DNA of 64,000 nt from Verrucomicrobia bacterium IMCC26134. Lineage in GTDB: Bacteria; Verrucomicrobiota; Verrucomicrobiia; Opitutales; Opitutaceae. Below, piece after piece: positions 5,879 to 19,159 of the stretch. The notes below the pieces were generated by a model that was given only the letters and a program-made list of their open reading frames with translations, made no database searches and was not told where the DNA came from. The position numbers were made by a program, and so were the translations under genes. Numbering within the stretch: position 1 is the stretch's first letter; every line of letters begins with the position of its first letter. The stretch spans positions 2,787,001 through 2,851,000 of the forward strand of contig CP011265.1 in the NCBI GenBank assembly GCA_000972765.1. The letters run 5' to 3'.

Positions 5879-6466
5879 TCAGGCGGCGAGGTCGTCGTGG
5901 AGCTTCTTGAACCAGGCGAGTTCGTTGCGGAGGAGACGGCGGGCTTCGGGAGTCCACTTGGCGAGGGGCTTGTCTTCGGTGCGGCGGTGGAACCAGCGGC
6001 GGAATTGATCAAGCCCCCGCGTGAAGGTGACGACGGGGGCGTTGGCGTCGGGGGTGACGTTGTCGCGAGGGGGTTCTTCGGGAAGAACCCCCGTGGCGAG
6101 GTAGGCTTGGCGGAGGGAGGTGGCGTCGGTGAGATCGGTCACTTGTGACCGTTTCGAGAGACGCATGTAACGGCGGGCGGTCTCGGCGGAGATGCCGGGG
6201 CAATGGGCGGCGAGCCAATCAAGCCAAGTGCCGTGGGGGACGCTGGCCTTCTGGCGGGTGAGGAGGTCGCCGCACTGCACGGCGGCGGTGATGGCGGCGC
6301 GGGCCTCGTTAGTGGCGGAGTCGGCGGCAGTGCGGGCGGTGGTGAAGGCGGCATTGATCGAGGCGGAGAGGTCGATGCTTAACATGGCCCCCTGAGTGTC
6401 GGGAGCGGCGGTGTCGGGCGGGAGGACTTCAAGGGCGGCGACGGGCTTAGGTTTTGGCTTGGTCAT
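5879..6466 (-). CDS. DUF3102 family phage protein
   Basis: 195 aa. The central part matches DUF3102: a helical stretch with repeated Ala and an early GDLL, then HGTWLDWLAAHCPG and SAETARRYMRLSK (about residues 98-125). DUF3102 proteins occur in phages and plasmids and their role is not established; the family resembles DNA-binding partition or replication accessory proteins. The C-terminal third (RWFHRRTEDKPL, ELAWFKKLHDDLAA) is helical. The start lies 20 bp inside the preceding gene. The coding sequence contains the 16-bp palindrome at 6136-6151, which recurs upstream of the early genes. This is the last gene of the replication operon before the non-coding block. Confidence 0.75.
   Translation of the reverse strand: MTKPKPKPVAALEVLPPDTAAPDTQGAMLSIDLSASINAAFTTARTAADSATNEARAAITAAVQCGDLLTRQKASVPHGTWLDWLAAHCPGISAETARRYMRLSKRSQVTDLTDATSLRQAYLATGVLPEEPPRDNVTPDANAPVVTFTRGLDQFRRWFHRRTEDKPLAKWTPEARRLLRNELAWFKKLHDDLAA
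6136..6151. promoter_or_regulatory. Palindrome CGGTCAC-TT-GTGACCG (candidate operator)
   Basis: Perfect 7-bp arms around TT, inside the DUF3102 gene. The same arms with GT as spacer occur at 16004-16019. Two copies 9.9 kb apart in one prophage suggest a binding site for a phage protein, as a repressor operator or a partition-like site. Confidence 0.5.
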
Positions 6467-7612: not shown

Positions 7613-9622
7613 TCAGGTGCCGGGCTCATAATTTACCCCCTTCCATGTTTTGTTGGCGCGGTCGAAAACGAGAATTCCACGCTCCGGTTGCCGGATGCTG
7701 TGAAAGACCGACGTGGCCTTGGATGAGTCTTTCCCGGCGTCGGCCAACTTCTCGGCGATGTAGGCGATGACGGCGCTTTCCTCGGGATTGGCCGAGTTCG
7801 CGAGTGGGGGCATGGCGGAGAACAGGGCGCGGTAACTGCCCGGCAAGAACGCAACATCACGCCGGCCGGAGCCGGGCTTGGTGTCGCGACCCTGCACCGA
7901 CTTCGGATCTGCGGCGATGCGCTCGAAGTGCTGCGTCGTCCATTGGATGACGAACTCGGGCTGGGGCGGGAGGTCGCGGAGGATGGGCGAGACGGTGAAG
8001 GCGTCGGGCTGCTCGTGCGGCGTCATGATGAGGAGCGCGTCGGGGTCGCGGCCAAAGACCGACGCACCGGCGACGCGGTCGATGGCGTCGCGACCGGTGA
8101 GATTCCCTTTCGGGAAGTGGGCGGCGATGAGGACGGCGGCGCTGGTGTCCTGCGCGAGCTTCTCCAGCTCGTTCAAGACCTGCGCCATCTCGGTATTCGA
8201 GTTCTCCTCCCTGTCCCCGTAGGTCTTGTAGATCGGGTCGATGATGATGAGGTCGGCCCCGACGCGCGCAGCCTGGCGGCGAAGGCGGGCGGAGAGCTGA
8301 CTGATCTCGTTGTCCTTGCCGCGACGATTCCAGACGTGGAAGCGAGCGAGGTCGGAGGGCGTGAAGCCCCGGCCTGCGCAGACGAAGCGGATGCGCTTGC
8401 GGTAACTGAACCGGGCAATCTCCAAGTTGACGTAGAGGACGGCAGAGGCGCGCGTGGTGAAGCCGCACCACGGGCGACCAAGGGAGACGGAGATGGCGAG
8501 GTCGGTGAGATTCCAGGTCTTCCGGCTCTTCGATGGACCGGCGATAATCATCTTCGCGCCGCGAAACAGAATGCCCTCGATGAGCTGGGGCGGGTCGGGC
8601 TCGTCCTCGGCGCAGAACGTGGATGCGGCGACGATGTCGCGGGCGTCCTCGTGCGTGGCTTCCCAATCGGCGAAGCTGGGCGAGCCGAGGTTGACGGCGA
8701 GAAGGCGTTGCACGCCGTCGCCGCGCAGGCCGCCGGGGCAACGGGAGAAGCGGGACGGGTTCTTGTTGGCCTTGTCGATCTGGAAGCCGGGGAGCGAGGC
8801 CCAGACTTTCTCGCGGCGGGCGTGGTATTCCTCGCGGTTCTTGGCGTCGATACGCACCCATGCGTGAACGGAGTTTCCGGCCGAATCAATGAGGGCGGAG
8901 ATGGGCAGGCCGGAGGCGCGGAGCTGGCGCTCCTGCTCGGCCTTCGGGATGGCGTCGCTCTCGATGAGGACATGGCGGAGCGTGGTCACGTCCTCGTCGG
9001 TGCCATCGGCACCGGAGCGCACGGGATTGATGCGGATGAACAGACCATGGCGGGCGGAGAAGACGCGGGCGATGCCGCCGCGTGAGGCGGCACGCTCAAG
9101 CCAAGCGTCGCGGGACAGGGAGTTGATGCCGCCGTGTTCGGGGATGGCGCGTTCGGATTCGGGGTGGAGCGTGCCGGGTGCGATGGAGAGCACGTCGGCA
9201 GGCTCGAAACAGGCGCGGAGGAAGGTCTCGAACTGGGTGGCGTCGGGGATGGGTGCGGAAGGTGTGGCGATGGTGGACACGGGGGAGGCGTGAGGGCGTG
9301 GAGACGAGGGGCCGGTGGAGCGGGCGAGGTGGCCTCGGCCTTCGGCGGGTGGTGACGCGCGGTCGGCGTCGGTGAGTTTGTGGGCGAGGTCGTGCTCCGA
9401 CCACGGGGGCGAGCAACGGGCGTTATACTCGGCAAAGAGCGGAGCGGCCTCGGCGACGGACAGGCCGAAGCCCTGCACAAGCGTGCAGGCGACGGCGAAA
9501 GTCTGGTCGTGGCCGTGCTGTCCCGAAATGGCGGGCGGCATTTTGGCGAGGTAGCGCCGGGCGCGCTCGATGAGGTCGAGCGGCCCGGCGCAATCGGAGG
9601 GCGACGTGTAGCGCAGGGGCAT
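7613..9622 (-). CDS. Phage primase-helicase (AEP-like primase + RecA-fold ATPase)
   Basis: 669 aa, two functional halves. Residues about 130-320 carry a primase-like domain: VLIESDAIP (Asp223) and NSVHAWVRID (His253) match the acidic and S-x-H motifs of archaeo-eukaryotic type primases. Residues about 345-560 are an AAA_25/RepA-type hexameric helicase: Walker A GPSKSRKT at 362-369, Walker B LIIIDP ending at 463, and an AAHF sensor near 500. The N-terminal 90 residues resemble a small helical PriCT-like module. The protein probably unwinds and primes phage DNA. Its start overlaps the helicase stop by one base (TGATG). Confidence 0.85.
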   Translation of the reverse strand: MPLRYTSPSDCAGPLDLIERARRYLAKMPPAISGQHGHDQTFAVACTLVQGFGLSVAEAAPLFAEYNARCSPPWSEHDLAHKLTDADRASPPAEGRGHLARSTGPSSPRPHASPVSTIATPSAPIPDATQFETFLRACFEPADVLSIAPGTLHPESERAIPEHGGINSLSRDAWLERAASRGGIARVFSARHGLFIRINPVRSGADGTDEDVTTLRHVLIESDAIPKAEQERQLRASGLPISALIDSAGNSVHAWVRIDAKNREEYHARREKVWASLPGFQIDKANKNPSRFSRCPGGLRGDGVQRLLAVNLGSPSFADWEATHEDARDIVAASTFCAEDEPDPPQLIEGILFRGAKMIIAGPSKSRKTWNLTDLAISVSLGRPWCGFTTRASAVLYVNLEIARFSYRKRIRFVCAGRGFTPSDLARFHVWNRRGKDNEISQLSARLRRQAARVGADLIIIDPIYKTYGDREENSNTEMAQVLNELEKLAQDTSAAVLIAAHFPKGNLTGRDAIDRVAGASVFGRDPDALLIMTPHEQPDAFTVSPILRDLPPQPEFVIQWTTQHFERIAADPKSVQGRDTKPGSGRRDVAFLPGSYRALFSAMPPLANSANPEESAVIAYIAEKLADAGKDSSKATSVFHSIRQPERGILVFDRANKTWKGVNYEPGT

Positions 9623-11616: not shown

Positions 11617-12270
11617 TTAGAGGGAGGGTTGGGTTTCTGCGATGAGGCCGAGCGCGACGGCGCAGCGGCGGGTGAGACGGAGATCGTTGGCGAGGTAGGC
11701 CAGCGCACCGGAGGGATCGGTTGCCCACTGCGAGGCGAAGTCGGCGCCGCTGCCGTTCTTGCGGCCGACGCCGAGGAACTGGGCGAGGCGGTCGAGCGAG
11801 ACGGAGTCCTCGCGGTTGCCGCAGCGCCAACAGTCGAGCACGTCGCGGCACTGCGACGGAAGCCAACGACCGGAGACGAGATCGGCCGGGACGGGCACGC
11901 GGTGGTGCCAGGAACGGCGAATGAGGAATGGCAGGTCGAAGCGGTTGGAACTGAAACCGATGAGGTCGGCGTTGAGGTAGCCGGTGGGCGCGACCAAGCG
12001 CCAGAAGGCGGCGAGGTCGGCGGCTTCGTCGCCGGTGGCGAAGTAGCCGAGTTCATCGGTGACCGCATCGAGGTAGCCGATGGCGAGCACGCGACCGGTG
12101 AGCGCGGAGAGCGCGGCGGATTGGAACCACTCAGCCTCCTTCTCGGCGACGTAGGCGCGGATCTTTTCAGGGTCTTTCCAGTTGGACGGGGCCTCGAACG
12201 TGGGCACGCATTCGGCTAGTTCGGCGCGGGAGCGGGGGCCGGTTTCGATGTCGAAGATGTAGGTGCTCAT
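11617..12270 (-). CDS. DnaQ/PolB-like 3'-5' exonuclease
   Basis: 217 aa. The first catalytic motif is FDIET (Asp7, Glu9). A second appears in GFSSNRFDLPFL (Asp near 113), and the C-terminal NDLRLTRRC carries the late DEDD aspartate. This is the layout of the PolB-type exonuclease domain occurring alone, common in phage recombination modules where it produces or trims single strands. It is coupled to the Sak4-like gene by a 4-bp overlap at its start and followed after 5 bp by DUF669, so the three likely work together in strand annealing. Confidence 0.8.
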   Translation of the reverse strand: MSTYIFDIETGPRSRAELAECVPTFEAPSNWKDPEKIRAYVAEKEAEWFQSAALSALTGRVLAIGYLDAVTDELGYFATGDEAADLAAFWRLVAPTGYLNADLIGFSSNRFDLPFLIRRSWHHRVPVPADLVSGRWLPSQCRDVLDCWRCGNREDSVSLDRLAQFLGVGRKNGSGADFASQWATDPSGALAYLANDLRLTRRCAVALGLIAETQPSL

Positions 12271-13361
12271 CGGGCACCTCCTTTGCCGGCTTTGGCGGCC
12301 GTCGAGGTGGACGCCTCGGCGATCTTGTTCATCTGGTCTTGGAGTTTGGAGATGAGCTTCGCGGCCTGGTCGGCGGTGAGTTCAGTCCAGTGGAGGTCGA
12401 TGCTGTCGCAGCCGACCCAAGCGAACGCCTTGGCGCGGTCTTCGGGCGTCTTCTTGAGCGTCGTCCAGTAGAGATCGAGTTTGGCGGCCTGCTCGTGGGT
12501 GATGAGGAGAACGGGGCCGGGACGCGGCGCGGTTTCGGCAGTCTTTTCCATTTTGGAAACAACTGCGGCTGGGGCCGGAGTGGTCGGCGGCGGCGTGGGC
12601 GCGGGTGGAGTGCCGACGCGGGCGAAGATCGGGGCGAGGGACGCCGCGACGCAGGGGAGTTTGTCGTCGAGGTTGTAACGATTTTTCGCATCCCAGGCGG
12701 CGGTGTGCGTGGTGTGGATCACGCGCTCGCGGCCACCGACGGCGCGTTGCTTGCCGTCTTTCTCGGTCACCTTCGTGACGAAGTTCACGAAGAGAAGAGC
12801 ATCGACCCACTCCTTGACGAGGGCGGCGACCTGCTTGGCGAGTTTCAGCTCGAAGCGGTCGTAAGCGCCGGCCGCGTCGGGGGCCTCGAACTTGCGGATG
12901 GTGCTATGACCGACGAGGACGACGTGGACGCCGCGGTCGCGGAGCTTTTCGAGCAGGGCGAGAAAGCGGGCGAACTCCTCGGCGAGATAGACGAGTCCCT
13001 TGCCGTAGCCGAAATCTTCAAGGCCGTCCTTGTTGGCTTTGCGGCAGACTTCCTCGATGAGGAGTTTTTCGGCCCAGTCGATGGAGTCGATGACGAGGGT
13101 TTTGTGACCGTGCTCGGCAGTGAGCAGGTGGTTGATGGCCGCGATCAACTCGGCCCAGTTACGGGGACGAGGGAAGCGGGCGACGTCGAGGTGAGCGGTG
13201 CCGCCTTCGGTGTCGATGAACACCGGTTCGGGAAAACCGGCGGTGATGGTGGTCTTGCCGACGCCTTCGGGCCCGTAGAGGGCGAGGCGCGCGGCGCTCT
13301 GGATAAGACCGCGCGTGATCGAGATCGGCGCGGTGGATTTAGTGACGGGAGGAACGGACAT
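12267..13361 (-). CDS. Sak4-like RecA-fold ATPase (phage recombination)
   Basis: 364 aa. Walker A GPEGVGKTT lies at residues 30-38, FIDTEGGTAHL follows, Walker B TLVIDSIDW near 95-103, and a polar VVLVGHS sensor near 150. The order matches the phage AAA_24/Sak4 group, RecA-core proteins that promote annealing of single strands. After residue 250 comes a Pro/Ala/Thr linker and a small helical C-terminal domain. The start at 13361 gives a normal N-terminus; a 12-residue longer reading is possible. It is the first gene of the recombination/replication operon, 135 bp below the terminator at 13496-13529. Confidence 0.8.
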   Translation of the reverse strand: MSVPPVTKSTAPISITRGLIQSAARLALYGPEGVGKTTITAGFPEPVFIDTEGGTAHLDVARFPRPRNWAELIAAINHLLTAEHGHKTLVIDSIDWAEKLLIEEVCRKANKDGLEDFGYGKGLVYLAEEFARFLALLEKLRDRGVHVVLVGHSTIRKFEAPDAAGAYDRFELKLAKQVAALVKEWVDALLFVNFVTKVTEKDGKQRAVGGRERVIHTTHTAAWDAKNRYNLDDKLPCVAASLAPIFARVGTPPAPTPPPTTPAPAAVVSKMEKTAETAPRPGPVLLITHEQAAKLDLYWTTLKKTPEDRAKAFAWVGCDSIDLHWTELTADQAAKLISKLQDQMNKIAEASTSTAAKAGKGGAR

Positions 13362-13495
13362 GGTTGCGAAATCGCCAGTCGCCAAGCGGGGAAGCATAAC
13401 CCCGGAGCCTCCCCGCCCGGCTCCGCTGGCGGCGGAGGTCTTGCGGATGTGAAAGGGTTACGAGGGCTCGCGGGGAATTTCCCAAAATCCGGGCA

Positions 13496-13529
13496 CAAAA
13501 AAGGCCGCTCGCGTGATGCAAGCGGCCTA
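13496..13529 (-). terminator. Intrinsic terminator ending the two-gene unit
   Basis: On the minus strand the stem GGCCGCT (13527-13521 with 13509-13503) and an 11-base loop are followed by a run of at least six U. It lies 29 bp after the stop of the 13558 gene and separates that unit from the recombination operon. The rest of 13362-13495 shows no gene. Confidence 0.8.
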
Positions 13530-13557
13530 TTGCCAGAGAGAAATGCGGGCGGGCGCG

Positions 13558-14706
13558 TTAATCGCGTTCGTCTGGGAAATCATCTGGATCGCTTGGGGAA
13601 TTCCCCAAACGGGCGGCACCCCGGCGCACGCGGTCGGACTGCGTGCGGAACTTGAACAGGGGCCAGTAGCCGCGACCGGCGTTTCGACGGCGGGGGCCAT
13701 CCTCTGGGCTATCGCGGAGGGCAAAGGCCGTGCCTTCGATGCCGGTTACGGCGGCGAGTTTCTTCGTGATGCTCTTCACCCGGCTGCGCGTATCCTCGTC
13801 GCGCTCGGTGCCTGATGCCGGTTCGGGAATATAGCCGATGCGGGCGGCAGCTTGAAACGCGCGCCAGTCTTTTGATGGTTTGCCATGCTGCGACTCAAAG
13901 CCGAGTTCGCGCGGCGTGAACTCAGCTTTTGGGGAGCCGGTGTGGTGAGAAATCGCAATGTGGTCGTTGTCGAGGAGGGTGACGACGAGGTGTTTCCAAT
14001 CGGTGCCCTCCGGCAAACGTAGTTTGCGGAGGGCGCGGCCTAGTTCTCGCTCCAGATCCGACCATCGTTCGGAGAGTTCGAGGGTGGCGATAAGACCGCC
14101 CTTGGGGTCGGGCGCGATGAAGTCGCCAAGGACGCCAAGCCGACCTCCGCAGGCTTTGAGGGAGTCGGCCACGGGTTGCAGGGCCGAGTTGGCGGTCGGA
14201 ACGAACAAAACTGGCCGCTCAAGCCGGCGCGCGGCTACGAACGCCACGTTCTGCACGTGCTCGGACACCGTGCGCGCGAACGAAAGAAAGATGGGGACGT
14301 GGAGCTTCGTGACGGTGCCTATGCGCCATAGCGACGGCGTGAGGCTCTCCGGTGGGCCTTCAAGTGTGAGAGCGGCGGCGAGCTCGGCCATGAGACCGGG
14401 GAGGTCGATCCGCCAGACGAGACGCTCTTCTGGCGTGATGGTGAATGGGCGGCAGTCGGCCCCGCGTTGCGGGCAGGCGACAAGACGGCCGTCATCCTCT
14501 TCCTCGATGCGATGGTGACGACGGCAAGACCGGGTCGGCTGTTTGCACGGCACAGTGCCTGCGGCCTCGCGGGTGTTGTGAAAGACGCAGGCAGGCAGTC
14601 CACGGAAACACTCCGCGCCAAGGTGCCCGTGCCACTCGGACGGCACGGCGGCGAGATCCGCCACCAACGGCAGGCGCTCAAGGAACTTCGGCCAGAGCGT
14701 GGGCAT
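13558..14706 (-). CDS. Unknown phage protein with three CX6C motifs
   Basis: 382 aa, not recognised. Cysteines fall in three equally spaced pairs: C33-x6-C40 (CFRGLPAC), C54-x6-C61 (CKQPTRSC) and C78-x6-C85 (CPQRGADC), with His residues at 43 and 64-65, suggesting a zinc- or metal-binding N-terminal domain. Residues about 95-270 look like an alpha/beta domain. Residues 285-382 contain TPRELGFE and a basic segment RVKSITKKLAAVTGIE, which could form a DNA-binding wing. The ATG lies 29 bp inside the upstream gene, so the two are coupled, and a terminator follows. Function unknown; regulation or defence is possible but unproven. Confidence 0.65.
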   Translation of the reverse strand: MPTLWPKFLERLPLVADLAAVPSEWHGHLGAECFRGLPACVFHNTREAAGTVPCKQPTRSCRRHHRIEEEDDGRLVACPQRGADCRPFTITPEERLVWRIDLPGLMAELAAALTLEGPPESLTPSLWRIGTVTKLHVPIFLSFARTVSEHVQNVAFVAARRLERPVLFVPTANSALQPVADSLKACGGRLGVLGDFIAPDPKGGLIATLELSERWSDLERELGRALRKLRLPEGTDWKHLVVTLLDNDHIAISHHTGSPKAEFTPRELGFESQHGKPSKDWRAFQAAARIGYIPEPASGTERDEDTRSRVKSITKKLAAVTGIEGTAFALRDSPEDGPRRRNAGRGYWPLFKFRTQSDRVRRGAARLGNSPSDPDDFPDERD

Positions 14707-15883
14707 TGGCGGGTGGCGCGGCCTCGGGTTCGGGTTGCTCGATAATGAAGCCGGCGGTGCGGAGCCACTGCTCGACCAGCTTGCCGTCGTTGTCGCGTTT
14801 GAAATTGGCCTTGTTGGGCGTCTCGATCTTCACCGTGCGGGTGTGCTTCGCGGTGGTGAAGGAGATATCGAAGGTGGCGGCCTGCAAAACGCGGTTGGCG
14901 AGGAACGCATCGTTCTTGAGACGATCTGATTGAAAGAGGTTATCGGAGCGATAAACGATGGATTCTGAGAGCCTGCCGCCGAGATAGACGTCGAGCTCAA
15001 CCAAGGTAATTTTCTTCAAGCCGACGACATGGGCGCAGGCGAGGGACTGCTCTCCCTTGAGGCGAAGCGGGTCGAGCGTATATTTGTCGGTGTCGGGAAA
15101 GGCTGCCTCGTCATCGACGAAGTGAACGCCGCACGCGCGGGTGTAGAGATCGGCGTCGCGCTTTTTCGAGTTTATACGCACCTCGTCGTTTTCGGGATCG
15201 TAAACGATCACATCGAAGACCTCGCGGCGGAAAAGGGCGCTGTCGGACTCACCGGGGGCGTCGGCCTTGACGATGCCCTCGCGGACGAGTGGCCCGCCGT
15301 GGCGAACGAGGAAGCGGATAGATTTCGAGTCTTTCTCAGGGAACTGGTAGAGCTTGATGCTCTCGCGCGGATAGAACGGGGCGAGCCGTTCGGCGATTTC
15401 ATCGCAGAACTCGGCCAAGGTCGCGTCGTCGAGTTGGCCCTCGGGCAAATCGAGCTGCGTGCGATAGGAGCGGAAGCTCCGGTTTTCGCGGGCGTAGCGG
15501 CGGGCGTTGGTGTTTTCGACCAACACCGGATCGAGCAACCAGCGTTGAATGACGAAGACCGCAGGCTCGATTTCCTTATCCTTGGTGAAGTTCGGATCGG
15601 TTTCGCGGATCGCGTCCACCAGAGCCGAGACGCCGGCTTCGTCGGCCATCTCGTGGACGATGAACATGGCATCGGCCAGGTTCTTGTCGGGCGTGGGGCC
15701 GGCGGGCTTAAGAAGGGTTTCGTGAAGGACTTTGTGGTCGAGCGTTTCGGGGTCTGCCGGCCACTCGAAACCCTGTGACTCCATATAAACGCGATGGCGT
15801 TCAAAAAACTTGTGCAGCAGGGCGGCCGGAATGGAACGAAGAAGGCCGAGGGAAGTGAATGTGCGCGGGTTGTAGTTCGACAT
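14678..15883 (-). CDS. Unknown phage protein, first gene of a coupled pair
   Basis: 401 aa, not recognised. No signal peptide, membrane segment or nucleotide-binding loop is visible. The N-terminus reads SNYNPRTFTSLGLLRSIP, the middle is rich in charged residues (FRREVFDVIVYDPENDEVRI near 220-240), and the C-terminus ends Pro/Ala-rich. The overall composition suggests a soluble mixed alpha/beta protein. It overlaps the CX6C gene by 29 bp. A terminator-like hairpin with a U-run ends only about 12 bp before the ATG, so expression may depend on antitermination or attenuation. Confidence 0.6.
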   Translation of the reverse strand: MSNYNPRTFTSLGLLRSIPAALLHKFFERHRVYMESQGFEWPADPETLDHKVLHETLLKPAGPTPDKNLADAMFIVHEMADEAGVSALVDAIRETDPNFTKDKEIEPAVFVIQRWLLDPVLVENTNARRYARENRSFRSYRTQLDLPEGQLDDATLAEFCDEIAERLAPFYPRESIKLYQFPEKDSKSIRFLVRHGGPLVREGIVKADAPGESDSALFRREVFDVIVYDPENDEVRINSKKRDADLYTRACGVHFVDDEAAFPDTDKYTLDPLRLKGEQSLACAHVVGLKKITLVELDVYLGGRLSESIVYRSDNLFQSDRLKNDAFLANRVLQAATFDISFTTAKHTRTVKIETPNKANFKRDNDGKLVEQWLRTAGFIIEQPEPEAAPPANAHALAEVP

Positions 15884-15892
15884 GGTTGGAGA

Positions 15893-15926
15893 CGAAAAAA
15901 CCGCGACCTAGAGCGGGCGCGGTTGG
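15893..15926 (-). terminator. Terminator/attenuator just upstream of the unknown pair
   Basis: On the minus strand AACCGCG (15924-15918) pairs with CGCGGTT (15905-15899), loop 12, followed by a U-run at 15900-15895. It ends about 12 bases before the ATG at 15883, overlapping the ribosome-binding zone. Confidence 0.65.
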
Positions 15927-16003: not shown

Positions 16004-16019
16004 CGGTCACGTGTGACCG
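16004..16019. promoter_or_regulatory. Palindrome CGGTCAC-GT-GTGACCG (candidate operator)
   Basis: Perfect 7-bp arms in the gap between the AlpA-like gene and the unknown pair, the place expected for an early operator. The arms are identical to those at 6136-6151. Confidence 0.55.
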
Positions 16020-16040: not shown

Positions 16041-16274
16041 CTAGACGCGCGCCGGGATTTTGAGCTTCGTGCGGATGTGGGTGGAGACCTCGGCGGGGTC
16101 GAAGTAAACGAGACGGCCGATTTTATGGTAAGGGATGCGGCGGAGCTTCGTCCAGTCGCGGAGGGTGCGAATCGAGGGCTCTTTGCCGGTCGGGAAAATG
16201 CCGCAAGTGCGGAGGCCGACGATGTCGATGAGCTGCGAATTGATGTGAGTAGCGGAGTCGGTAGGCGTGTGCAT
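16041..16274 (-). CDS. AlpA/excisionase-like winged HTH protein
   Basis: 77 aa. The segment SIRTLRDWTKLRRIPYHKIGRLVYFDPAEVSTHI (given here as key residues: Arg-Trp of the recognition helix, RIPYHKIG, the YFDP wing) is the MerR-like winged helix used by excisionases and AlpA activators. Such proteins bend att DNA for excision or switch on prophage genes. The start at 16274 was chosen because longer readings have no family similarity. The gene heads the leftward transcription and is divergent from the cargo gene at 16357. With no CI-like repressor visible, it may be the main regulator in this half of the phage. Confidence 0.75.
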   Translation of the reverse strand: MHTPTDSATHINSQLIDIVGLRTCGIFPTGKEPSIRTLRDWTKLRRIPYHKIGRLVYFDPAEVSTHIRTKLKIPARV

Positions 16275-16356
16275 GCAGCGGGCGCGGTGTCCACCAGGCA
16301 GAAACGAGTTTGCCGGAACAGGGTTTAACTGTCGTTGTCGCAGTTCTATTCCATTC

Positions 16357-17664
16357 ATGAATATCGCTGAATACGCCAAGAATAAGGTGCAGGCGGCTGT
16401 TGCCAAGGTATCCGCAGCCACAGCGGCTGCTAAGGCAATCGAGAACGACATCAAAGGATTTGAGACCAAGGCGCGTGACTTGAAAATGACACGAGACCGA
16501 CTCGTTGCCGAAGAGATCGACAAAACGGCTGTCGAAGAAAGACTTCGTGGTGTTGAAACTAAAACCGCTTCACTAGTGGCGGAGTTGAAACTAAAAAATG
16601 AAGCTGTTGAAGCGGCTACAGCAGAGCGTGAAGGGCTAAAGCCGTTGGAGGAATTAGCTGAACTGTGTGTTGAAAAGCTTAAGTTGGTCGAGATCCCTGA
16701 GATCCAGTCAGCGCACGAGTTGCTGAAACATTTTGAAGTCCACTTAAAATTTGAGGATCAACGAGCCACGGCATGTAGTTTTTGGTGGTTGGGTAAGGGT
16801 AGATCAGGAGCTCCAAACCCCCTCTTTGAATTGCCCTTGGCCTCGAAAGAGTCTCGGGGACGCGCGACACTGATTCCTGACGCCGTGTCATGGATTCCAG
16901 ATCAATGGCTACCGGCAAAAGGAAGCCGGCGCGAAGAGATGCAGCGTTGGGATTATGACAAGAAACCGCTGAAACCAGCAGACGATTTAGAGCCAAAACC
17001 AATTTATTACGTTATACCAGAGGATGAGTTCAGCTCGCTCAGTGAGAAGGTTACCTGGAGGGAAACAGAGCGGCAGGCGAAACCAAGGCAACAGGGCTAC
17101 CAGTGGCAGCAAACTGAATGGCAGGATGTAGTCGTCACGAAGGACTCTGAAATATGCGAAGATACTACACCTCTGATCGATGTTCTATTGAGCGAAGTGG
17201 AGGACGTTGAGATCAATCTTTCGGGTAAAAACGAAATCCCGTATTTTGATGAAATCGCGAAGCTAGTCATCGACGCTACCCACGTCATTGGCGAGAGCCC
17301 ATATGCAGAGTATCGGGACGCACAGACAACGCTTGAGATCGAAAAGATTCTTGGGCCGTTTCTGGGGAAATTCATTGATGCTCCGTGGACGGCAGAAACC
17401 ACGGGCATTCTCGCTAATTTCAAATACTACTGTGAACAGCGAGAGCGACCGAGGTTTCATAACCTCTCGATTGACGGGCTCTATGGCTTTCGACTGCGCA
17501 CCCGGGATCACAGCTGGATAACCGGTCGAATTTATATTGTCCCCAAGACGATGACATACGCATCCCCTGAGTCGAAAGTGCCGGAAATTAAAATACTAAA
17601 CAGCGGGCAGCAAATCCTTGCCCGAATGGGTCGCATGATCCTGCTAGTCACTGAAGCCAGATGA
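16357..17664 (+). CDS. Coiled-coil cargo protein of unknown function
   Basis: 435 aa, not recognised. Residues about 1-110 are Ala/Lys/Glu-rich heptad-like sequence predicted to form a long coiled coil. The rest is a globular part rich in Trp and Tyr (CSFWWLGKGRSG, QGYQWQQTEWQD, EYRDAQTTLEIEKILG). No signal peptide or membrane segment. Base composition is clearly more AT-rich than its neighbours and codon use differs, which points to separate acquisition. The ATG at 16357 has no Shine-Dalgarno match; a longer reading overlaps the divergent gene. The position, facing opposite to all phage genes beside the integrase, is typical of lysogen-expressed cargo, often defence genes. Confidence 0.65.
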   Translation: MNIAEYAKNKVQAAVAKVSAATAAAKAIENDIKGFETKARDLKMTRDRLVAEEIDKTAVEERLRGVETKTASLVAELKLKNEAVEAATAEREGLKPLEELAELCVEKLKLVEIPEIQSAHELLKHFEVHLKFEDQRATACSFWWLGKGRSGAPNPLFELPLASKESRGRATLIPDAVSWIPDQWLPAKGSRREEMQRWDYDKKPLKPADDLEPKPIYYVIPEDEFSSLSEKVTWRETERQAKPRQQGYQWQQTEWQDVVVTKDSEICEDTTPLIDVLLSEVEDVEINLSGKNEIPYFDEIAKLVIDATHVIGESPYAEYRDAQTTLEIEKILGPFLGKFIDAPWTAETTGILANFKYYCEQRERPRFHNLSIDGLYGFRLRTRDHSWITGRIYIVPKTMTYASPESKVPEIKILNSGQQILARMGRMILLVTEAR

Positions 17665-17698: not shown

Positions 17699-18904
17699 TC
17701 AAGCCGCGAGTGCCGCGGGTGGCGGTGTCTCGGGAACGGGAGCGGTTTTCGCGTGCTTTGGCGTGATGCCGAAAAATAGCTCGGCCTCCTCCTTGGTCTT
17801 CAAGTCGAGGTAGTGCTTGCGAATGATGCTCTCGGAGTTGCCGGCCTGCAAAGCGGCCTCGCCCATCGAGCGGAATTTGCCGACGTGCATCGAAATGAAT
17901 GTGTGGCGCATGACGTCGTGGGAGAGGTCGAAGTCTTTGGCGACGGCCGCGCGCTTGTGCTGAAGGTTGGTCGGGATTATCGGAAACTTCTCCAGCGGGT
18001 AGGCGGTCAACCAGGCCGCAAGGTTGGGCTGAATGGCGACGCTGCGCTTCATGCGGACTTTCGAGACCTCGGGCTCGATGAGGATGACGCCGGTATCGAG
18101 CCGGACATGCTCGGCCTTGAGTTTGAGGATCTCACCATGACGGACGCATGGGCGGATGCCTGCGAACAGGGCGAGCGCGAAGAACGGGACGAGGCTGCCG
18201 CCGTCGATCTTTTCGACGTGGTGCATAAGCTTTTCGGCCTGCTCGGCGGATATGGTCTTGGCGGAGCCGCGACGGTGAGCGATGCGGTGGTGTGGAATTT
18301 TTTCGACTGGATTGACGGCGACCCAGTCCTTCTGAAACGCGAACTTAAAGAAGGTGTGGAGGATGCCGCGCCGGTTATTGATGGTCTTCGGGCCGGCATT
18401 GCCGCGCTGGCAATGGGCGGTGAGCTGCTGAGTGGTCAACTGCGAGACAAGGACGGCGGGAAACCGTTTTTTGAGAACGCCTAGATGGCGGCGGATGTGG
18501 TCGAACTGGGAAATCGAAAGAAGCTTCTGGTCGTGCTCGCGCTGCTTGAAGGCGAGGTAGGTCGTGACGGCATCGGCCAAGGACTGCTCGCGATCTGGGG
18601 CGCGGTAGTTGGCCAAGGCAAAATCGAGGTAGAACGAAAGCGACTTGGGCGCGTCGGCGAGGCGGCGGAAAGCGGCCTCAGCCTCGTGAAGCTGGGCATC
18701 GGTCAAACGCGTGGCGGTGGTGCGAATGCCGGTCTCGGCCTGCAGACGTTGGATTTCCAAGGCCTGACGCTCGGCGGAAGCCTCGGCGCGGGAAGGGAAA
18801 TTCTTGCGGATGCGCTTACCGTCGAGCCAACCGGTGACGCGAAAAACGATCTCCCCTGAGGGATTCGTGAATTCTGAGATGATGAACTGTGCGGCCTGGG
18901 CCAT
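17699..18904 (-). CDS. int: Tyrosine-type site-specific integrase
   Basis: 401 aa. It joins phage and host DNA at the tRNA-Ser gene. Residues about 85-190 form the SAM-like core-binding domain (QFDHIRRHLGVLKKRF). The catalytic domain shows the first Arg in ALFAGIRPCVRHGEIL, His-x-x-Arg in SHDVMRHTFISMH, and the nucleophile Tyr in SIIRKHYLDL near residue 365. The N-terminal part resembles an AP2-like arm-binding domain (residues 5-45). The gene reads away from the tRNA 3' end, with 61 bp between them. A perfect inverted repeat ends three bases before its ATG and could form an mRNA hairpin or protein site that limits expression. Confidence 0.92.
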   Translation of the reverse strand: MAQAAQFIISEFTNPSGEIVFRVTGWLDGKRIRKNFPSRAEASAERQALEIQRLQAETGIRTTATRLTDAQLHEAEAAFRRLADAPKSLSFYLDFALANYRAPDREQSLADAVTTYLAFKQREHDQKLLSISQFDHIRRHLGVLKKRFPAVLVSQLTTQQLTAHCQRGNAGPKTINNRRGILHTFFKFAFQKDWVAVNPVEKIPHHRIAHRRGSAKTISAEQAEKLMHHVEKIDGGSLVPFFALALFAGIRPCVRHGEILKLKAEHVRLDTGVILIEPEVSKVRMKRSVAIQPNLAAWLTAYPLEKFPIIPTNLQHKRAAVAKDFDLSHDVMRHTFISMHVGKFRSMGEAALQAGNSESIIRKHYLDLKTKEEAELFFGITPKHAKTAPVPETPPPAALAA

Positions 18905-18965: not shown

Positions 18966-19053
18966 CTGGCGGAGAGGGGGGATTCGAACCCCCGGAACCT
19001 TTCGGTTCACCGCATTTCGAGTGCGGCGCGATCGACCACTCTGCCACCTCTCC
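18966..19053 (-). tRNA. tRNA-Ser(CGA), prophage attachment site
   Basis: Cloverleaf on the minus strand: GGAGAGG acceptor, D-arm, anticodon arm CCGCA-CTCGAAA-TGCGG with anticodon CGA, long variable arm GAACC-GAAA-GGTTC, T-arm GGGGG-TTCGAAT, and encoded CCA. The 3' C-run has six C before TCTCC where a full 5-bp T-stem plus 7-bp acceptor would need seven, so one pair is lost or a homopolymer base is miscounted. The integrase gene starts 61 bp beyond its 3' end. Confidence 0.9.
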
Positions 19054-19159
19054 TGATCACGAAGGGGAGGAAGCTAGAATCGCCCCTGCAAAACGGAAGC
19101 CGAAAGTTTCGGTTCGAATCATTTCATCCCCCCCCGGACCGCCGGCGCCCGGCCAGCCC

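Follow-up and report, generated by a model that had tools for sequence, protein, structure and literature searches.

A paired, allele-variable gene cassette with putative operator palindromes in an integrated element of Verrucomicrobia bacterium IMCC26134

The genome of Verrucomicrobia bacterium IMCC26134 (GenBank assembly GCA_000972765.1, contig CP011265.1) carries an integrated virus-like element of about 22 kb, part of which falls in the window analysed here, the 64,000-nucleotide stretch from position 2,787,001 to 2,851,000 of the contig. We examine two genes of this element, called A and B, as a candidate regulatory pair; coordinates are those of the window, and handles such as L014 and G013 denote the loci and genomes compared. 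Both are open reading frames (ORFs) on the minus strand, at the places where an earlier note on this DNA had put two unrecognised proteins of 401 and 382 aa with a 29-bp overlap. Gene A (14678..15883) encodes 401 aa, with a helical N-terminal region (residues 1-131) followed by a predicted RdgC/CENP-N/CENP-L-like fold (about 132-385). Gene B (13558..14706), downstream of A and sharing positions 14678-14706 with it, encodes 382 aa that divide into an N-terminal domain, an alpha/beta domain (about 100-225) and a C-terminal winged-helix-like domain (about 226-352). Open frames are kept in 31 aligned homologues of A (19-87% identical to the window's A) and 27 aligned homologues of B (14-69%). A and B are real genes; chance ORFs were rejected as an account of them because of this conservation across many lineages.

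Hairpins stand on both sides of the pair, and both are real by folding energy. The intrinsic terminator after B (13502..13528, minus strand) has a stem of 11 pairs running from 13528 to 13502, followed by T6. Its base-pair count is the highest among 17 terminator-like sites in a scan of 11-18.5 kb, and it folds at -23.6 kcal/mol (z -4.6; 0 of 200 shuffles equal). It is also present in the relatives L014, G013 and G044; inspection by eye shows it clearly in four of six aligned sequences, with an altered form in L015 and none evident in L016. The terminator-like hairpin in the A leader (15895..15924, minus strand; hairpin at about 15924-15899, then a U-run) is not in the list from that scan, whose loops were limited to 3-8 nt, and folds at -14.4 kcal/mol (z -3.6; 0 of 200 shuffles equal). 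The window and the six relatives aligned with it all keep this hairpin, also L016, whose A escapes tblastn. Since its U-run ends about 11 nt before the A start codon, where a separate promoter would not fit, this hairpin seems to be an attenuator in the leader and not an insulator. The proposal of terminators on both sides of the pair is therefore borne out for two stable hairpins with U-runs, and has to be revised for the upstream one, which does not look like insulation.

A and B form a near-strict pair that travels together across many elements. In profile searches, B lies directly downstream of A in 39 of 41 A-selected viral loci, the other two ending at a contig edge, and A is present in all 20 B-selected viral loci; some contigs are common to the two sets. 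The best 80 loci selected by sak4, the gene for a Sak4-like single-strand annealing protein, include 25 with A, and 20 of these have a recognised B. The five without a recognised B comprise three truncated at a contig end, L016 with a diverged ORF of about B's size, and L018, an ambiguous case. Genome loci with A carry B in seven of eight cases, the remaining one being contig-cut, and over all locus sets six of the eight exceptions with A and no recognised B are cut by a contig end. Across 337 genomes of the phylum, A is found in 29, B in 29 and both in 22. The copies in the seven A-only genomes are partial, broken or at a contig edge; as to the seven B-only genomes, the match spans 58 residues in one and is partial, within frames of 319-422 aa, in three. 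It is rare to meet either gene in full length without the other, in line with the co-occurrence that had been suggested as a check. The remaining three B-only genomes, which belong to one genus (L182, L183 and L184, equivalent to G448, G336 and G412), each encode, in at least six copies, a protein of 220-270 aa that resembles the N-terminal part of B, with no recognised A.

Neither protein is recognised in the libraries searched. Pfam, NCBIfam and PADLOC give no match for A or B (in PADLOC, 0 families at E<=1), and PHROGs give none for A and a single one for B (phrog_25695, E 0.027 over 21 residues), judged to be chance. With tblastn, the window's A finds nothing in 50,697 phage or 72,556 plasmid records, the window's B nothing in the 50,697 phage records, and an A from another group (L125) again nothing. 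PDB sequence searches with the A and B profiles return chance-level matches alone, while Pfam scans of the 31 A members yield GGDEF_2 in five (best E 0.015) and one domain of unknown function, likewise judged chance. No sequence match of A or B to replication proteins was found; a clear match of this kind would have told against the reading in the earlier note. Toxin-antitoxin and simple defence gene pairs were both rejected as accounts of A-B, there being no known family. No paper recognisable as dealing with the pair was found in the literature, the pair having no name to search by.

The pair varies sharply within an otherwise conserved element. Between the window and G044, sak4 is 93%, the exonuclease 99%, the helicase 98% and the integrase 96% identical, as against 31% for A and 43% for B; between the window and L015 the values are 90% for sak4, 99% for the exonuclease and 94% for the helicase, with 31% for both A and B. 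The second element of the same genome (L016, equated with it by identical tblastn values) has 89%, 92% and 97% identity in sak4, exonuclease and helicase, and its slot is filled by a pair, A'/B', to which tblastn is blind; A' was matched by a profile that already contained it, so that its recognition is not independent. Other relatives have closer versions, with A 87% and B 68% identical to the window's in L014 and 85% and 66% in G013, and in G075 (L097) A is broken off after residue 129 with no recognised B. From these comparisons A-B appears to behave as an allele-exchangeable cassette in several relatives.

The exchange extends to the domains of B. Between the window and G044, identity in B rises from 26% in residues 1-100 to 32% in 101-225, 57% in 226-300 and 70% in 301-382, and between the window and L014 the same four segments give 92, 79, 44 and 49%. 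Similarly, G044 and L015 share 71, 58, 25 and 16% in these segments and 71-84% in A. In the comparisons among the window, G044, L014 and L015, A and the first 225 residues of B move jointly and the last 150 residues of B move separately, a pattern indicating that B ends in an exchangeable domain. This domain is probably DNA-binding, to judge from modelled and profile likenesses. The AlphaFold2 model of B (predicted local distance difference test, pLDDT, 87.6; predicted template-modelling score, pTM, 0.60) was compared by VIA, in which residues 102-352 match OmpR-type regulators consisting of a receiver and a winged helix, weakly (Z 5.0-6.5) and with a large root-mean-square deviation (rmsd), and residues 239-352 match the OmpR-type winged helix, again weakly (Z 4.8-5.1). 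Because Foldseek with this model gives no match at E<=0.001 and the best VIA Z is 6.5, we treat the response-regulator likeness of B as a lead only. B would also differ from OmpR/PhoB response regulators in its extra N-terminal domain and in a C-terminal domain that is swapped between relatives. In Pfam, the C-terminal part appears to be replaced in some members: it is Rrf2-type in three of 27 (best E 7.5e-6), has a Fis-type HTH_8 helix-turn-helix (HTH) in one (E 3.1e-4) and a transposase-type HTH in one (E 1.6e-3); the three B members with an HTH or Rrf2 match that were checked against the cut-offs fall below the curated thresholds, and the HTH matches are accompanied by unrelated ones of like weakness, such as MDMPI_C (E 0.0048).

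Two palindromes lie beside the pair in the window. O1 (TTGGGGAATTCCCCAA, 13593..13608, 0 mismatches) is inside the 3' end of B, and O2 (13470..13485), which is O1 with 3 mismatches, lies 123 bp from O1 and 73 bp upstream of the sak4 ORF start; O1-type matches with up to 3 mismatches are expected 0.16 times per 64 kb. The terminator after B falls between the two sites. GGGGAATTCCCC-type sites occupy the same two places in the window and G044, and GGGTAATTACCC-type sites occupy them in L014 and G013, as TTGGGTAATTACCCAA and TTGGGTAACTACCCCC; the change from one type to the other is symmetrical in O1 and affects the same positions in O2. We further scanned for two similar palindromes 80-140 bp apart, with criteria and a score threshold that were fixed after the pattern had been seen and then run on control windows. 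Such a pair is found in the A-B flank of 27 of 53 distinct units and in 14 of 2042 control windows of the same loci, and under stricter settings in 17 of the 53 units against 2 other pairs in 688,287 bp. Pairs lie downstream of B in 17 of 47 and upstream of A in 10 of 53; none reaches the threshold for L101-L104, L015, L098 and others. The spacings cluster at about 87-88, 97-98, 117-124 and 130-134 bp, with 144 in G013; the steps between these clusters, roughly a helical turn each, are no more than suggestive.

Where their position was examined, the sites precede sak4 or some other early gene. In the window, as in a divergent group (L026, L031, L034), the pair separates A-B from sak4, and in L031 the nearest site is, by eye, about 46 nt before the candidate sak4 start. 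For L110 the pair precedes a gene with a Sigma70_r2 match (E 3.7e-6), and L038 is similar by eye. A terminator separates the two sites in L110 as in the window, and by eye also in G044, L014, G013, L038 and L204. The second element (L016) has two tandem GGTAACG..CGTTACC palindromes at the same spot (7237 and 7259; 0.00 expected), of which there is none in the window. In L015, where the usual pair beside B is absent, two perfect 18-bp palindromes (TGTGGACACGTGTCCACA and TGTGGTCACGTGACCACA, at 7780 and 7816) lie 36 bp apart in the region of the genes for a single-stranded DNA-binding protein (SSB) and the helicase.

Site sequence follows the C-terminal domain of B more closely than the rest of the protein. 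Half-site similarity correlates with the C-terminal domain given the N-terminal part at a partial r of 0.47, and with the N-terminal part given the C-terminal domain at 0.14, in 25 units that comprise 24 of the 27 (L033, L116 and L206 were left out by us) and G013, whose spacing of 144 bp is beyond the 80-140 bp of the scan. These observations suggest that the regulator allele and its putative operator sequence vary together. Paired palindromes beside a replication operon would also suit a replication origin or centromere-like site, with B as the initiator or site-binding protein and A as a clamp on B, and the resemblance of A to the centromere proteins CENP-N and CENP-L described below fits such an arrangement. 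We consider it quite unlikely, because the elements carry an integrase, adjoin tRNA genes and encode their own primase and helicase, and because the window sites flank a terminator with O2 just before a gene start, and the nearest site of L031 is just before a candidate one. Two palindromes are, moreover, few for an iteron origin.

The AlphaFold2 model of A, built from 31 sequences (pLDDT 85.1, pTM 0.80), matches in VIA RdgC (Z 11.9 and 11.6), CENP-N (11.1 and 11.0), CENP-L (10.8), Iml3 (8.8) and Chl4 (7.9-8.8), the next unrelated row being at Z 6.2; for whole-complex PDB entries the names CENP-N/Chl4 and CENP-L are taken from the chain letter. Foldseek against the PDB gives six matches at E<=0.001 (1.3e-4 to 8.6e-4), which are chains N of kinetochore complexes and RdgC (E 4.1e-4 and 8.6e-4), and against BFVD ten matches at E<=0.001, with viral RdgC-named proteins among them. 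RdgC aligns to residues 132-387 of A over 216-224 residues (2owl, 2owy). The model thus gives A an RdgC/CENP-N-type predicted fold, in the sense of fold likeness and not of family membership. Indeed, no RdgC chain is among the nine matches of the A profile to PDB sequences at E<=10, and hhalign gives no support for B with RdgC or for A with B. Structure prediction, which had been recommended for both proteins, has therefore returned an RdgC/CENP-N-like fold for A and a weak OmpR-type likeness for B.

The comparison with the inner kinetochore proteins CENP-N/Chl4 and CENP-L/Iml3 extends to the N-terminal region, as CENP-N covers part of the helical region of A together with the alpha/beta part. 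Because the CENP-N rows (6eqt, 7xhn_N) start at A residue 64-68 and reach 379, and the RdgC and CENP-L rows start near 130, the helical region of the A model may be the counterpart of the CENP-N N-terminal domain, a helical domain which we take to be pyrin-like. CENP-N and CENP-L differ from A in belonging to another biology and in their 7-12% identity, and a fold match shows no function. The likeness to RdgC is also distant, with an rmsd of 4.2-5.4 A in VIA, a Foldseek template-modelling score of 0.33-0.36 and 10-11% identity. RdgC is a ring dimer that binds DNA without sequence preference, and it is not known to have a partner like B.

The fold suggests another role, that of an RdgC-type recombination or replication accessory working with Sak4 and the exonuclease, with B as its DNA-targeting partner. 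Its RdgC-like fold, the adjoining sak4, the presence of A in 25 of the best 80 sak4 loci and the frequency of RdgC-type proteins in phages (relatives of E. coli RdgC in 430 phage records by tblastn) all speak for such a role. We nevertheless hold it to be unlikely, since A has no sequence kinship to RdgC, A-B lies on the strand opposite sak4 in a whole group, the other 55 of the best 80 sak4 loci (some of them short) have no recognised A, and A-B is exchanged between alleles where sak4 and the exonuclease stay nearly identical.

In our preferred reading, A and B probably regulate the early replication operon together and in an allele-specific way, most likely as its repressor or immunity switch. 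Repression is proposed as the direction from the sites near a gene start and the allele difference between co-resident elements. In this mechanism, a dimer of B would bind each palindrome through the C-terminal winged helix, the two sites, 87-144 bp apart, being bridged or bound cooperatively, and would thereby control the operon's promoter with a specificity particular to each allele. The first 225 residues of B would form one complex with A, whose part in it would be to bridge DNA or to modulate, comparable to that of RexA in lambda. The A-B complex would repress the early operon while the element is integrated and be relieved on induction. Lysogeny control, one of three options raised in the earlier note, is favoured by the palindrome pairs that track the C-terminal domain of B and by repressor or antirepressor genes beside A in three relatives. 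Directly upstream of A stand a LexA-type repressor (LexA DNA-binding and S24 peptidase domains) in L103, an XRE repressor with an M78 peptidase in L036, a BRO-N protein in L126 and a protein with a weak ParB-type HTH match in L130, these being few loci picked by hand. Such repressor and antirepressor gene kinds surround lysogeny switches.

A more specific version, which we regard as possible though doubtful, makes A-B a DNA-bridging complex and a new immunity class: B dimers would read two phased palindromes, the RdgC/CENP-N-fold subunit would close round or bridge the intervening DNA, and specificity would be changed by swapping the DNA-binding domain of B and the operator pair together. An allele-specific regulator with its own operators is a known kind; the A and B proteins and their combination are without a match in the libraries searched, apart from the weak PHROG match of B. 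A possible case of this known kind is the immunity of cluster A mycobacteriophages (PMC6550527).

Several observations weigh against a repressor or immunity switch. As to B, its best Z of 6.5 is tied with a CRISPR ancillary nuclease, with EndoMS and PIWI rows at 5.5-5.8, and the window's B lacks any Pfam family at E<=1, so that there is no receiver match either. As to A, no sequence profile ties it to RdgC (hhalign 0.7%, 30 columns) or to RexA (hhalign 0.1%, with a shallow 3-sequence RexA alignment), and it is acidic overall, unlike what a DNA clamp suggests. Nor is A always hypervariable: in G013 it is about as conserved as sak4, exonuclease and helicase (81-89%). The 27 units with a palindrome pair share ancestry and fall into about eight sequence classes of our own grouping, so that they are not 27 independent cases, and 26 of the 53 units, those with Rrf2- or Fis-type C-terminal parts among them, have no pair at the threshold. 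Linkage could add to the covariation of the C-terminal domain and the sites, which are neighbours and may be transferred together as a single tract. Promoter scans of two operator regions, and of the site in the window, find nothing sigma-70-like. A classical repressor adjoins A in some relatives, where A-B need not be the sole repressor; in the window's element no other repressor appears among the scanned proteins, in a scan not exhaustive over ORFs.

For the repressor or immunity switch, the closest known parallel is the lambda immunity region. In PMC11077077 and PMC4080450, RdgC, Iml3/Chl4 and lambda RexA are assigned one common fold, and the first of these sources describes RexA as binding DNA and biasing the CI/Cro switch, with rexA adjoining cI. 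RexA is absent from the fold lists obtained with A, an uninformative absence, and its relatives RdgC, Iml3 and Chl4 are present. Like RexA and RexB, A and B form a two-gene unit in which one protein has, or for A is predicted to have, an RdgC-like fold, and the position of A directly downstream of the LexA-type repressor gene in L103 recalls cI-rexA. A differs from RexA in its extra N-terminal helical region and in that no sequence kinship was found with the shallow 3-sequence alignment; B is not a membrane protein like RexB and probably has a DNA-binding domain.

The same parallel could be read as a Rex-like exclusion or defence cassette that blocks other phages, given that RexA has the RdgC fold and RexAB excludes T4rII, as PMC11077077 has it, that the cassette is hypervariable and that defence matches abound among the genes left of the head gene. 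We judge this very unlikely: A-B has no PADLOC match, no known effector family and no membrane partner like RexB, and the paired palindromes point to regulation. B lacks a strongly hydrophobic segment (maximum 19-residue Kyte-Doolittle mean 1.14). Defence or counter-defence, the other options of the earlier note, accordingly finds no direct support.

If A-B is such a regulator, it would represent a widespread immunity or early-gene switch built from parts not known as phage repressors, and its exchange of domains and operators would offer a testable natural series for the evolution of immunity specificity. It would also add another phage-borne branch of the RdgC/RexA/CENP-N fold, with a bearing on the role of RexA in lambda and on the origin of the CENP-N/CENP-L fold. 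Should the bridging version hold, integrated elements would use a distant structural relative of the kinetochore CENP-N/CENP-L pair as a repressor.

The surrounding genes place A-B between an excisionase-like HTH ORF and the integrase on one side and sak4 on the other. Sak4 (12267..13397, minus strand; phrog_124, E 8.6e-56), downstream of O2, is the first gene of a replication and recombination block that continues with exonuclease-like, SSB-like, helicase, primase and RusA-like genes. Upstream of A lie the excisionase-like ORF (16041..16523, minus strand; phrog_1840, E 0.018, a weak match, with a C-terminal part conserved in relatives) and a tyrosine integrase (17699..18904, minus strand; phrog_1, E 5.7e-23) that adjoins a tRNA-Ser (18968-19054), from whose side the element extends leftward. 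It runs over about 22 kb from L188:17801-18703, left of the window, to window position 18904 and includes integrase, replication, capsid and packaging genes; those for the terminase, portal, scaffold and major head protein lie beyond the left end of the window. Apart from the A-B slot, this gene order recurs in the second element of the window's genome, which adjoins a tRNA-Glu, and in the genome G013.

The window's element is possibly not a complete phage but a capsid-forming satellite. It resembles the capsid-forming phage-inducible chromosomal islands (cfPICI) described in PMC11389934 in that a stretch of about 22 kb next to a tRNA gene combines integrase, replication, capsid and packaging genes, with no tail genes seen in a search that did not take in every ORF. 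It differs in that no helper is known for it and its left end is not located, no left attachment site (attL) having been found with repeats of at least 15 bp. The idea of a phage accessory module holds for A-B as an undescribed, nearly always paired and allele-exchangeable cassette; the word phage is uncertain for an element with capsid and packaging genes and, within the ORFs searched, no tail genes.

A further palindrome, CGGTCACNNGTGACCG, recurs in the element. One copy is in the A leader (16004..16019), a second at 6136-6151 inside an ORF at 5879-6466 and a third at about -2252, i.e. about 2.25 kb left of the window, after the head gene. These three exact-arm copies compare with 0 in 200 Markov copies; a looser test (up to 3 mismatches) is not striking, with 4 against 0.97 expected and as many in 3 of 100 shuffles. 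Within two mismatches none occurs in the window's other 44 kb, and one, with two mismatches, in the 20 kb further left. The palindrome is also present in the second element of the same genome and at two of the three places in L014, G013, G044 and L015 (some with one mismatch), with none in L017, and it does not vary with the A-B allele. It could be a candidate site for a conserved protein controlling A-B: CGGTCACNNGTGACCG and the attenuator hairpin would let such an element protein, perhaps the excisionase-like HTH protein, set the amount of A-B.

Further genes lie near the cassette and the element. An unrecognised 465-aa ORF with low G+C content at third codon positions (16267-17664, plus strand) overlaps the excisionase-like ORF and reaches the integrase; among the 19 loci compared it is matched only in G075 (L003, L097). 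Close to the broken A of the same genome (L097:7380-15114) there is one gene resembling those for type IV restriction enzymes and another that looks like hipA by eye (weak PDC-M03A match). Left of the head gene, L188:2967-17056 (plus strand) contains matches to the defence models HmaB-, HmaC- and PLD-helicase-like, oligonucleotide cyclase, PDC-M04A and PDC-M04B, one of the seven proteins scanned there being without a defence-model match.

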